From contig NZ_CP071091.1 of the NCBI RefSeq assembly GCF_017301635.1, forward strand, positions 9,664,501-9,728,500: DNA of 64,000 bases. The letters run 5' to 3'. Both the position numbers and the translations under genes were made by a program. Origin of the DNA: Myxococcus landrumus (GTDB lineage Bacteria; Myxococcota; Myxococcia; Myxococcales; Myxococcaceae). Positions 12,277 through 55,846 of this stretch are shown piece after piece (position 1 is the stretch's first letter; every line of letters starts with the position of its first letter). Under the pieces are notes generated by a model. The model made no database searches and had not been told where the DNA came from. It saw nothing but the letters and a program-made list of their open reading frames with translations.

Positions 12277-12464
12277 GCACGCTGAACAACGGGTACGGGT
12301 CCGGGTACGGGGACGGGTACGGGTACGGGTCCGGGTACGGGGACGGGTCCGGGGACGGGTCCGGGTACGGGGACGGGTCCGGGTCCGGGGACGGGTACGG
12401 GGACGGGTCCGGGGACGGGTCCGGGTACGGGGACGGGTACGGGTACGGGGACGGGTACGAATAG
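12273..12464 (+). CDS. (Gly-X)28 low-complexity protein
   Basis: 63 aa. After STLNN the protein is 28 uninterrupted Gly-X dipeptides with X = Tyr, Ser or Asp, then a final Glu. The GTG at 12273 is chosen because it overlaps the previous stop (GTGA). No signal peptide. Such Gly/Tyr/Ser/Asp strings are disordered and could drive assembly or phase separation; no function is known to me. Every Gly codon is GGG and each dipeptide is one hexamer, so the gene is effectively a microsatellite. Confidence 0.65.
12291..12458 (+). repeat. 28 tandem hexamers GGG(T/G)(A/C)C
   Basis: 168 bp made only of the hexamers GGGTAC, GGGTCC and GGGGAC, 28 copies in phase with the reading frame. Slippage would add or remove whole Gly-X units without frameshift. 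The other strand would read Pro-Val/Pro-Gly. Confidence 0.9.
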
Positions 12465-53257: not shown

Positions 53258-53535
53258 ACGCCAGCCTCCTCGGCCTCATGGGCTGCGCAGAGTCCAGACG
53301 GCATGGCAGGCATGCCACAGCCGCCCCATGCCGTCGTCACCCAGCACCGGCCACGCGTGTCGGGAGGAGAGTAGCCATCGGAGTCTCGAGCGCCGACACG
53401 TGCCAGCTTCCCGGCAAGGCGTTTCACCTCGCGCTGTGACTTGTCGACTTCCTGCCGGAGTGCTCCGGACTTCGCTTCAGCGCGCATCCACTTCTCCAGG
53501 TTCGGGCAGGATTGCCCATGTTTTCGACACGTCAT
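53254..53535 (-). CDS. Small Cys-rich protein with coiled coil
   Basis: 93 aa. CRKHGQSCPNLEKW start, coiled coil (ALRQEVDKSQREVKRLAGKLARV), and CWVTTAWGGCGMPAMPSGLCAAH at the end, a probable zinc site. Overlaps the helicase stop by 4 bp. Confidence 0.5.
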   Translation of the reverse strand: MTCRKHGQSCPNLEKWMRAEAKSGALRQEVDKSQREVKRLAGKLARVGARDSDGYSPPDTRGRCWVTTAWGGCGMPAMPSGLCAAHEAEEAGV

Positions 53536-54971
53536 GAGTCGCCTCCGAAGAGTGGTGCCCGTGCGCGCTTGCTCATCGCCTTTGCCTCCTGCTGCGCCTG
53601 CCTCTCCGCCTCGAAGTCGACCGGATAGCCGCCACGCAGACGGAGGAGGCCAGCGCCTCCGTCAATCTCAAGCGCTGCAGTAGCGCCCTCTTTGCCCTTG
53701 GTTGCTTTAACCACGGTGACGAGTTGGTGCCCGGCTCTCGACGACTGCCGCCACAGGCCAAGAATCACGCGTGCCGCAGCGTCGAGGTAGCCCGACTCCT
53801 TGAGGTCGCTCCGCTTTGGCATGCTCTCGTCGTCACTGCTCCGATTGAGGTGCCACAGCATGATGATGGGCGTGTTGGTGCGCATACCGAGGTTGGCCAA
53901 TGCGTCCATGGCCTTGCCGATGGCCTGGTCCTCGCGCTGCTCTCGGTGGCTACGCGGGTACTCGATGCGCAGCCCGTGGTCGATGACGATGAAGCGAGCT
54001 CCATGGTGAATCATGCGCCGCGCCTCCGCGAGGAGGTCCGGGAAGGAGATGCTCGGGGTGTCGACATCCACGCCCGTGTCGGTGACGTCGTAGATGAACA
54101 GCCGCTCCTCGAAAGCGGAATGCATCTCACCCATCCACTGTTGCAACCTCTCCTCGTTGTAGGCCACCGCACTCGGCCCATTGCCTCCCAATCGGCAGGC
54201 GCCGACATCCCCGTACTGGATGCCCATGTGCTGGGCGGTGGGCCTGTCCGTCAGCCACTCCACGCCGTCCTCGAGGCCAAAGACGCCGCCGCACATTCGC
54301 TGGCGAAACACCCAGTGCGTGATGCAACCAGTCACGAGTCCCGTTTTGAAGTTCCCGCTGCGTCCCGCGATGACGTTGAGGTTGGGAACGAATCCTCGGA
54401 ATGGCGCCTCGTTGAGTGCCTCATACGGCAGCGTCAGGTACGGCTCCGTCTTGCCGCTGGCAAAGTCCTCCCACCGCTGTGCCAGCCGGAGGACGGCTCG
54501 GCCACCACGCACGAGAGGGCGCTCCAGCCGCACAGCCGCAAAGCCCTGCGCTGACTCCACGGCAGCTCGAGCCGGAGAGAGGGACATGTCCAGTGCCCGG
54601 GCCCGGGCCTTGTCGGCCTCGTCAAGCATCGCGCGGCGCGCAGACAAGTCGCGCAGCCGGGCGACGTAGGACGGCAGATTGGAGGCGGCGAGTGGCACCA
54701 CCTGGTCAAGTCGCATGAGGTAGGCAGGGCCCCCGACGGTGGCCAACTCCCCCCGGTCCTTGAGCCGCGTCGCCACGGTGATGTGGTCGACGGCACGGCC
54801 CTCTGCGGCCAGGGAGACCATCGAAGCCCACGTGAGGCGCTCCGGCTGCCCGGCGAACGCTTCGAGCGGCAGAGGGCCCGTCTCGTTGACGTGGAGGCCG
54901 TGGAGGACGCAGCCCAGCACGGCACGCTCCGTCTGCTCGTCACGTGGCTCTGCTTGGGTGGCGCAACTCAT
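53532..54971 (-). CDS. DnaB-like replicative helicase
   Basis: 479 aa from ATG 54971 (ATGA). N-terminal DnaB domain (TERAVLGCVLHGLHVNETGPLPLEAFAGQPERLTWASMVSLA...ITVATRLKDRGELATVGGPAYLMRL) and a RecA-like core: Walker A AGRSGNFKTGL, Walker B FIVIDHGLRIEY, and LWHLNR/KESGYLDAAARVILGLWR (sensor and arginine region). It unwinds DNA at the phage origin, presumably loaded by the initiator encoded immediately upstream. Confidence 0.85.
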   Translation of the reverse strand: MSCATQAEPRDEQTERAVLGCVLHGLHVNETGPLPLEAFAGQPERLTWASMVSLAAEGRAVDHITVATRLKDRGELATVGGPAYLMRLDQVVPLAASNLPSYVARLRDLSARRAMLDEADKARARALDMSLSPARAAVESAQGFAAVRLERPLVRGGRAVLRLAQRWEDFASGKTEPYLTLPYEALNEAPFRGFVPNLNVIAGRSGNFKTGLVTGCITHWVFRQRMCGGVFGLEDGVEWLTDRPTAQHMGIQYGDVGACRLGGNGPSAVAYNEERLQQWMGEMHSAFEERLFIYDVTDTGVDVDTPSISFPDLLAEARRMIHHGARFIVIDHGLRIEYPRSHREQREDQAIGKAMDALANLGMRTNTPIIMLWHLNRSSDDESMPKRSDLKESGYLDAAARVILGLWRQSSRAGHQLVTVVKATKGKEGATAALEIDGGAGLLRLRGGYPVDFEAERQAQQEAKAMSKRARAPLFGGDS

Positions 54972-55846
54972 GCTGCACCCCGTGTCGCCTTGGACTCCCA
55001 TGTACTCCTGCTGGCGACGAAGTAACCAAGCGAATACGCCGGGTCCCTCGCGGCATTCTCCGGCGAGTCCAAATACAAGTGCCACGCTGACTGGAACAGA
55101 CTGGCGGCAGCCCCCTCAAGACGAGCCGCTTCGCCAAGCTGCTTGTTGATTCGTGCTGGCAGCCACGCCTCTGCGACGTAGGTGCAGCCAGCCCGCTCGC
55201 ACTCAAGCTGCCGGTCCTGCTCCATCGCGGCATATAGCGTCTCGGCTTTGCTGGGCTTGCGGGGTGGCTTGCCTGCCTGCTGGACGGAAAGCGTCAGTTC
55301 CTCCCGGACCGCAGTGGGCGGCGCAGCCGCATGCGAAGCAACATCTAGGCTAGGCACAGCACAGCTAGGCACGGCTAGGCTAGGCGTGACGGCGTGTGAC
55401 GCGGCGTGACCGTCTGTGACAGCGTGTGACGGCGTGTGACTTTCTGTCACGTTTTGTGACGAATCGTCACGTTTTGTGACAGCAGTTGACGCCGCAACAT
55501 CTCTTGCGAGTTCGCGAGCCTTTGATTGTCGTGCCTTGTCGGATGCCCGCGCCTCCTGTGCTGCGAGGAAGTTGCGGACGAGGAGCGTGCCGCCGTCGGC
55601 GGTCATTCCAATGCAGCCGTCAGTCAAGAGTTCCTCGAGTGCTGACTCCAGGCGCTCCCATTCATGGGCGTGCCCGATTGCGATGGCGATGCCACGGCGC
55701 CCGTGTTTCCCAAGTGGGAGCAACCCGGCGCGGTCCACCTTGCGCAGAAGCATCATGAAGAGGGCTTGGGCGTCGAACGACAGGGCAAGCCAGTCAGTCG
55801 TATCCCGCGTGTAGACCCTCACGTATCGCTCGTCTTCCCAGCGCAT
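54968..55846 (-). CDS. Replication initiator/helicase-loading protein with internal origin
   Basis: 292 aa. N-terminal winged-helix part (WLALSFDAQALFMMLLRKVDRAGLLPLGKHGRRGIAIAIGHAHEWERLESALEELLTDGCIGM, about 17-80) typical of phage replisome organisers; centre about 105-170 is Ser/Thr/His/Val-rich, low complexity and encoded by the iteron array at 55345-55480; C-terminal helical domain (AWLPARINKQLGEAARLEGAAASLFQSAWHLYLDSPENAARDPAYSLGYFV) probably contacts helicase. The arrangement is like lambda O. Confidence 0.7.
   Translation of the reverse strand: MRWEDERYVRVYTRDTTDWLALSFDAQALFMMLLRKVDRAGLLPLGKHGRRGIAIAIGHAHEWERLESALEELLTDGCIGMTADGGTLLVRNFLAAQEARASDKARQSKARELARDVAASTAVTKRDDSSQNVTESHTPSHAVTDGHAASHAVTPSLAVPSCAVPSLDVASHAAAPPTAVREELTLSVQQAGKPPRKPSKAETLYAAMEQDRQLECERAGCTYVAEAWLPARINKQLGEAARLEGAAASLFQSAWHLYLDSPENAARDPAYSLGYFVASRSTWESKATRGAA
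55345..55480. repeat. Iteron array, predicted phage replication origin
   Basis: Inside the initiator gene. Part one: five CTAGGC units starting at 55345, 55350, 55365, 55375 and 55380. Part two: ten GTGAC/GTCAC units at an exact 10-bp spacing, from 55386-55390 to 55476-55480; six are direct, then GTCAC and GTGAC alternate, giving two copies of GTCACGTTTTGTGAC (55446-55460, 55466-55480). A 10-bp period is not a multiple of three, so it is kept at DNA level rather than by the protein. Confidence 0.75.

Follow-up and report, generated by a model that had tools for sequence, protein, structure and literature searches.

A one-turn GTSAC box array inside the initiator gene of a Myxococcus prophage is a probable replication origin

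A prophage of Myxococcus landrumus very probably carries its replication origin inside the gene of its own replication initiator. Ten GTSAC boxes (GTCAC or GTGAC) follow one another there, and at this site the boxes would be bound, the DNA opened, and the DnaB helicase loaded. The window is the whole 64-kb stretch of DNA that was analyzed. The first-pass annotation had proposed an in-gene iteron-type origin, and this appears to be the best-supported reading, because the phasing is kept in most homologues and is lost in synonymous shuffles. In-gene phage origins are an established kind, represented by the lactococcal replisome organizers, SPP1 oriL, and the RepA_N plasmids. The window would present this known type in an unusually clear and quantifiable form and gives an Mx8-like prophage of a myxobacterium a specific candidate origin. 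The boxes, their phasing and frame independence, their conservation in most relatives, the pentamer register, and the gene neighborhood were all computed. The features of the locus are listed below.

54968 to 55846, minus strand: initiator gene of 292 aa, with a winged-helix N-terminal domain, a disordered linker, and a C-terminal helical region
55493 to 55846, minus strand: codons 1–118, winged-helix domain and basic helix, predicted box binder (model, homologue conservation)
55486 to 55490, no strand assigned: degenerate eleventh box in phase, TTGAC on the plus strand (sequence reading)
55386 to 55480, minus strand: ten GTSAC boxes at an exact 10-bp step, all three codon frames used
55386, 55396, 55406, 55416, 55426, 55436, 55456, and 55476, plus strand: starts of GTGAC (sequence reading)
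55446 and 55466, plus strand: starts of GTCAC (sequence reading)
55446 to 55460, minus strand: inverted pair GTCAC-AAAAC-GTGAC (coding strand), peptide SQNVT
55466 to 55480, minus strand: second, identical inverted pair GTCAC-AAAAC-GTGAC (coding strand), peptide VTKRD
55346 to 55385, minus strand: pentamer lattice of eight units (GCCTA, GCCGT, or GCTGT) that holds five CTAGGC, in register with the last box
54971 to 55249, minus strand: codons 200–292, C-terminal helical region, probable helicase-side module (model; related stretch in Mx9 p49 and in locus L271)
53532 to 54971, minus strand: DnaB-like helicase gene (Pfam DnaB_C, 4.9e-18)

The ten boxes start at 55386–55476 on the plus strand with nine intervals of exactly 10 bp each, and our re-reading agrees with the annotation on both counts. 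The array lies 366–461 bp into the initiator ORF. The window holds 160 GTSAC sites, and all nine pairs that are exactly 10 bp apart are inside the array, where about 0.4 pairs in the 64 kb would be expected with the sites evenly random. When the codons of the ORF were shuffled synonymously with the protein kept, the mean was 5.5 GTSAC sites against the 10 observed, and 5000 such shuffles gave a mean of 0.56 one-turn pairs and a maximum of 5 against the 9 observed. All sites had been placed on one face of the DNA. This is correct locally but not across the array: the step is 10.0 bp and not 10.5 bp, so the boxes share a face only locally, and the drift over nine intervals is nearly half a turn. 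The 15-mer GTCACAAAACGTGAC occurs twice in the gene in different frames and encodes the peptides VTKRD and SQNVT. The most AT-rich 60 bp of the initiator gene (55440–55499, GC 0.48) are at the end of the array opposite the pentamer lattice.

The repeats lie, as annotated, in an initiator gene preceding DnaB (ORF 55846 to 54968, with the DnaB_C match next), and the likely ATG of DnaB at 54971 overlaps the initiator stop (ATGA). The initiator protein matches the PHROG replication-initiation families 1408 (1.4e-5), 8064 (2.8e-4), and 3171 (2.6e-3); the matches are weak but agree with one another. With PHROG 1408 and DnaB side by side, a phage replication-initiation family and an adjoining helicase gene are found together. 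Up to an E value of 1, no Pfam family was detected in the initiator, including RepA_N, Rep_Org_C, and Phg_2220_C. The structure model (49 sequences; mean pLDDT 71.5, pTM 0.44) predicts a confident winged helix at residues 21–90 (block means of pLDDT 94–98), a helix reaching residue 120, then a stretch (residues 121–199) of low confidence and no secondary structure, and a helical C-terminal region. Residues 123–167, which are encoded by the boxes and the pentamers, fall wholly within the stretch 121–199 that is predicted to be disordered, and the array is therefore predicted to occupy the linker.

Foldseek with the full model returned nothing at 0.001 or better, a PDB search by sequence gave nothing meaningful, and tblastn of the initiator against the named phages gave no match. 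In a second structural comparison, the first three rows were 4pql, 4pt7, and 5kbj (Z 8.1, 8.0, and 7.6; rmsd 7.0–7.6). The top row has an rmsd of 7.0 over 92 residues with unrelated winged helices within 1 Z, and the modeled likeness to plasmid RepA_N-type initiators is only a hint. By their titles, 4pql and 5kbj are probably plasmid-type initiators. 4pt7 and 4pta are plasmid RepA structures (PMC7145576).

The ten window proteins that were scanned include the prophage genes for an integrase, a terminase, a major head protein, a portal, and an amidase. The portal shares 69% identity with its counterpart in Myxococcus phage Mx8 and 66% with the Mx9 one, and the Mx8/Mx9-like prophage spans approximately 4.4–58.6 kb of the window. 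A gene for a LexA-type DNA-binding protein is close by (57677–57390). The prophage region also has a strong ACGGGT tandem repeat at 12289–12459 (171 bp, period of 6/12/30 bp). The cumulative GC-skew minimum lies near 55–57 kb, a position confounded by gene direction and by the host flank, and we rejected GC skew as origin evidence for this reason.

A first search for relatives found 13 loci in viruses and one in a Myxococcales MAG. Two of the six search peptides were inside the array, so the search was run again using only the N-terminal domain (patterns MRWEDER and Y[VI]RxY[TK]RDT). This gave 58 viral loci which, with the window and the MAG locus (L016), make 60 ORFs in 54 clusters at 90% identity. 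The full-length representatives number 52, of which 50 are viral and the others are the window and the MAG locus. L276 (196 aa) and L311 (64 aa) were left out, and L002/L318 are outside the 60 family ORFs and were read separately. Counted over the whole ORF, so that some pairs fall outside the linker, at least one one-turn pair is present in 47 of the 52 representatives, at least two in 41, and at least three in 34. The window and the MAG locus both have at least two. The expectation that homologues would keep 10- or 11-bp phasing despite amino-acid drift is borne out in most of the full-length viral representatives (at least two pairs in 39 of 50) but not in a minority without the array. A one-turn GTSAC pair is absent in 5 of the 52 (L264, L274, L275, L280, and L286). 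If GTNAC is allowed, 43 of the 52 have at least two pairs and three have none (L274, L275, and L280).

In most relatives the array keeps about the same place in the ORF. The distances between boxes in the family peak at 10, 20/21, 30/31, 40–42, 50–52, and 60–62 bp, while steps of 7–9 and 12–14 bp are much rarer than steps of 10 or 11 bp. These peaks indicate tolerance of 11-bp steps and of skipped boxes. A DnaB- or DnaC-like match lies no more than about 2.5 kb downstream in 38 of 52 viral representatives (DnaB-like in 31, DnaC-like in 14), and the other 14 have neither at 1e-4. Only 2 of the 96 bacterial genomes examined from the family, and 2 of the 195 from the phylum, carry the initiator gene, with the window genome counted. 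The other carrier (G015) has four GTCAC at 10 bp and the pentamer GACGA in a register equal to that of the window.

Selection on the box array acts on the DNA and not on the peptide. The annotation had argued for a DNA constraint from a period that breaks codon phase, and the use of three frames in the window bears this out. Across 53 ORFs of the family there are 231 one-turn pairs, against a mean of 24.5 and a maximum of 43 in 200 synonymous shuffles, and 37 of the 53 are individually significant (p<=0.01). The phased boxes of the family are distributed over the codon frames as 136, 96, and 92. The inverted pair GTCAC-N5-GTGAC occurs 67 times, 31 in frame 0 and 36 in frame 2; the third frame, which would contain an in-frame stop, is unused. 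The exact 15-mer GTCACAAAACGTGAC is found in both frames among the relatives too. The use of all frames together with the synonymous shuffles led us to reject a peptide repeat.

The spacers vary while the boxes are kept, and in places the 10-bp spacing is replaced by 11, 20, 21, or 31–33 bp. In the 67 GTCAC-to-GTGAC spacers, positions 2–4 on the coding strand are A in 40, 44, and 43 cases; 57% of the bases are A+T, and 34 of the 67 pairs have at least three A in the 5-bp spacer. The GTGAC-to-GTCAC spacers (30 pairs) are 55% A+T without the A-tract pattern, and the GTCAC-to-GTCAC spacers (109 pairs) are GC-rich, with 31% A+T against an ORF mean of 36%. Judged by eye, the arrays often begin with alternating boxes and continue with a GTCAC run; exceptions include L260, L268, L261, L309, L310, and L316.

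In the coding direction, the pentamer lattice starts immediately after the last box. On the coding strand from 55385 down to 55346, its units are GCCTA, GCCTA, GCCGT, GCCTA, GCTGT, GCTGT, GCCTA, and GCCTA. The five CTAGGC units annotated beside the boxes were found again (starts 55345, 55350, 55365, 55375, and 55380), so their count stands, but they belong to this separate eight-unit lattice and are not standalone units. In the 39 loci that have three or more phased boxes, the self-match at lag 5 in the 60 nt past the last phased box is 0.407, against 0.262 in the remaining ORF, and lags 10 and 15 are likewise raised. Synonymous shuffles give 0.334, with the observed value higher in 31 of the 39 loci, and so account for part of the pentamer signal. 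In the window, the lag-5 value is 0.545 against 0.388 shuffled, and none of 200 shuffles reaches it. Measured from the last box, CCTA/CCGT share a single register modulo 5 in 84 of 109 cases from the 39 family loci. In the 22 loci with a lag-5 match of at least 0.45 (135 units), the unit consensus is G/T-C-C/T-T/G-A/T. Other initiators have GACGA-, AGGAT-, GATAA-, or GATAAA-like units. The window lattice is GC-rich and is thus no classical AT-rich unwinding element, a real difficulty for an unwinding role.

Mx9 p49, which has an equal gene order, has no one-turn GTSAC array, and neither do Mx8 p19, BcepMigl, and TP901-1 rep; in Mx8 p19, GTSAC is wholly absent. Mx9 p49 resembles the window C-terminal domain (36% over 56 residues, E 1e-4 as a pair and 7e-4 in another run), and the Mx9 DnaB is related to the window DnaB (24%). 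Between Mx9 p49 and the window N-terminal domain there was no convincing match. This comparison fits a box array and winged helix that move as one module, and the RepA of PLE and its origin are described as moving together as a module (PMC8263062). In L278, L288, L304, and Mx8 p19 (L319:9248-10429), a T5orf172/MUG113 nuclease-type domain lies between the initiator winged helix and the remainder of the protein. The ORF at L276:3001-3588 consists of the winged helix and a T5orf172/MUG113-type nuclease, ends there, and is without a GTSAC array. The origin-directed nuclease Odn of ICP1 has an equal pairing of winged helix and nuclease (PMC8263062), and by analogy the L276 protein could be an anti-origin weapon.

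The closest known plans are those of lactococcal phages. The r1t ORF11, Tuc2009 Rep, and TP901-1 Rep genes have repeats within the initiator gene, as in the window. Inside rep, r1t has four GGAACC at exactly 11 bp followed by pentamers, and Tuc2009 has four CAACC at exactly 11 bp followed by AGGAT-like pentamers; both differ from the window in box sequence and in the 11-bp step. TP901-1 has no one-turn chain, unlike the window. The r1t origin is presumably located in the ORF11 repeats. The TP901-1 and Tuc2009 proteins are reported to bind direct repeats in their own genes, which serve as origins (PMC8965321), and a note in the Tuc2009 sequence record likewise reports an in-gene origin. The Tuc2009 and r1t proteins match the C-terminal families Rep_Org_C / Phg_2220_C (2e-44 and 2.3e-25), whereas the window protein matches neither (E <=1). 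Profile comparison of the initiator N-terminal domain with that of r1t/Tuc2009 was weak (probability 22%, 70 columns), and that with the N-terminus of the type found in Escherichia phage Evi covered only 18 columns of the basic helix. These profile matches do not show a common descent of the winged helices.

RepA_N plasmids offer another near model. In pSK41, the winged-helix N-terminal domain binds Rep boxes in the center of rep, the linker (residues 121–199) is the origin-coded part, a protein lacking the linker works in trans, and the C-terminal domain contacts the DnaG primase (PMC5703833). Most characterized RepA_N iterons contain inverted repeats converging on a poly-A tract (PMC7145576); the window has this arrangement in the two copies of GTCACAAAACGTGAC, which resemble the A-tract inverted repeats of RepA_N initiators (pSK41, pTZ2162) and of PLE RepA. 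Unlike the window, the RepA_N systems have no long one-turn array in the published descriptions consulted, and the PLE origin lies outside the rep gene. In SPP1 oriL, gp38 binds direct repeats inside its own gene 38, and the module has a DnaB-type helicase (PMC6316719). That likeness is one of layout, and oriL has an AT-rich DUE, whereas the neighboring lattice in the window is GC-rich.

The annotation had likened the plan to the lambda ori, with its iterons inside the initiator gene O. The lambda ori consists of four longer iterons about 20 bp apart and an AT-rich region. This plan differs from the ten 5-bp boxes at 10 bp and the GC-rich sequence after the run, and r1t, Tuc2009, and the RepA_N plasmids are nearer models. 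The 10-bp phasing and mixed orientation, which had been called distinctive, are not unique to the locus.

The favored reading, a prophage origin inside the initiator gene, has to be weighed against three others. One is that the phased boxes are an operator through which the initiator or a phage repressor, once bound, regulates how the replication genes are transcribed, with replication starting elsewhere. Short boxes phased on the DNA helix suit cooperative regulators, and the LexA-type gene lies near the array. We still consider an operator unlikely, given the position of the array inside the ORF, kept at about that place in most relatives, the pentamer lattice that comes next in register, and the shared plan of Tuc2009 with its reported in-gene origin. 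It is very unlikely that the region is a minisatellite grown by slippage where the linker tolerates it, or that protein function preserves a peptide repeat (SHAVT, AVPSR). The boxes persist between varying spacers, spacings of 11, 20, 21, or 31–33 bp replace 10 bp in places, all frames are used, one 15-mer gives two peptides, the shuffles lose the box signal, and the codon-phased 9-bp control described below is largely found in tail-fibre-like proteins. These points stand against a linker that is disordered in the model, TRF scoring of the box and pentamer region as tandem repeats, and the modest excess of the pentamers over synonymous shuffles (0.407 against 0.334, 31 of 39 loci); slippage can also lengthen short arrays. 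A simple microsatellite was rejected for the boxes, and for the pentamers it may hold in part.

The third reading takes the pentamers for a VIPR-type guide RNA (vrRNA) transcribed from the plus strand, made of RGC/NN repeats and no part of an origin. The vrRNA is described as 9–16 YNNGG units with hypervariable NN (2026 preprint, PMC13142463), and the plus-strand units of the window (GGC/TA, GGC/AC, and AGC/AC) resemble it, with six of eight fitting YNNGG. However, there are only eight units against the 9–16 reported, the pentamers are within coding sequence and in register with the boxes, and other initiators carry units of other kinds. The dinucleotides are not hypervariable, with GT, TA, and GA making up 99 of 135 units in 22 loci, and we therefore judge the likeness to be a coincidence. 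A guide RNA appears extremely improbable at this locus.

Returning to the in-gene origin, we infer box binding, strand opening, helicase loading, and origin activity from the anatomy of the locus and the named precedents. The winged-helix N-terminal domain would bind the GTSAC boxes, probably as a dimer at each of the two GTCAC-AAAAC-GTGAC inverted pairs. Along the GTCAC run, the initiator complex would grow by one box for about every helical turn. Once assembled, it may open the DNA beside the boxes, in the pentamer lattice, in the A+T-rich spacers of the boxes, or in both, and its C-terminal domain may hand over DnaB, the product of the next gene. The lattice could alternatively serve strand-specific recognition of short repeats, as described for DnaD (PMC10201434). 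The encoded peptide would be a flexible linker with little constraint on its sequence, which would leave the DNA free to maintain the code.

A search through 2.9 million viral contigs for runs of five GTSAC with a 10-bp step found 99 stretches, 88 of them distinct after duplicates were removed by flanking sequence, and 59 in ORFs of at least 150 aa. Among the best 25 of 53 PHROG families matched, all annotated ones are initiation, primosomal, DnaD-like loader, replisome organizer, or O-like families; phrog_270 is matched in 12 of the 59 ORFs, some of which may be spurious, and the profiles may include the linker and inflate the matches. At 11 bp there are 40 stretches and 24 ORFs of at least 150 aa, and among the best 25 of 48 families these are initiators again (DnaD-like loader in 9 of 24), with one tail-protein match. 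The codon-phased 9-bp control gave 92 stretches and 63 ORFs of at least 150 aa (62 of the 63 in one ORF alignment, with L163 left out), whose most-matched families, among the best 25 of 133, are tail fibres (up to 22 of 62). GASTC at 10 bp gave 8 stretches. We rejected the array count alone as evidence, as 92 stretches at 9 bp stand against 99 at 10 bp. The protein that holds the array, and not the count, separates the 10- and 11-bp sets from the 9-bp control. This separation is not absolute, since L187, with a 9-bp array, resembles an initiator linker followed by a lag-5 repeat. In nine loci (L029, L058, L075, L078, L079, L081, L022, L070, and L092), 10-bp GTSAC arrays occur without an initiator, in stretches whose only ORFs are short (at most 48 aa), and these stretches are two sets of look-alikes.

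The strongest short lag is 5 after the 10-bp arrays (56 loci, z 17) and 6 after the 11-bp arrays (24 loci, z 8; lag 5, z 2.7), and only lag 9 appears after the 9-bp arrays (60 loci); these z-scores treat loci as independent, and further lags such as 2 and 10 are also raised. Judged from these sequences, many phage initiators combine one-turn boxes with a short array of 5 or 6 bp, with real exceptions. The array unit tends to lengthen with the box step (10 with 5, 11 with 6). Fisher's test of this link gives p 0.0036 for the strong loci, which are non-independent, and p 0.039 after the table was altered by hand for named phages. Against the link are r1t and Tuc2009 (11 with 5) and Evi and pAEv1818 (10 with 6).

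Tentatively, these elements may form a general two-part origin code in the linkers of divergent phage initiators, in which the boxes would seat the initiator and a drifting, in-register array would open the strand or load the helicase. Such a code would be a phage counterpart of DnaA boxes and DnaA-trios. There, as with the DnaD recognition element, duplex boxes are followed by an array of short period that is recognized as a single strand (PMC10201434); unit length, sequence, and protein differ from the window, and the parallel is an analogy only. In the open-access literature searched, we found no paper describing a grammar of one-turn boxes and a short array. The 2006 review by Weigel and Seitz, said to cover phage replication modules, may well treat in-gene repeats. 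If the two-part code is true, many phage origins could be read from frame-rotating linkers. As a rule, candidate phage origins would be marked by one-turn boxes that rotate through the codon frames of a disordered linker, together with a lattice of 5 or 6 bp. This rule tells DNA from peptide constraint computationally and predicts which bases can be recoded, and the role of the short array in strand opening or helicase loading becomes testable in a small plasmid.

GTSAC boxes spaced by 10 or 11 bp are also present in three named phages (Escherichia phage Evi, Aeromonas pAEv1818, and Pseudomonas phi1), with a hexamer array that is clear in Evi and pAEv1818 and weaker in phi1. All three also have a second GTSAC cluster (steps 10, 10, and 11) inside the conserved winged-helix coding part, about 128–192 bp into the gene in L322 and L323 and 200–274 bp in L321.
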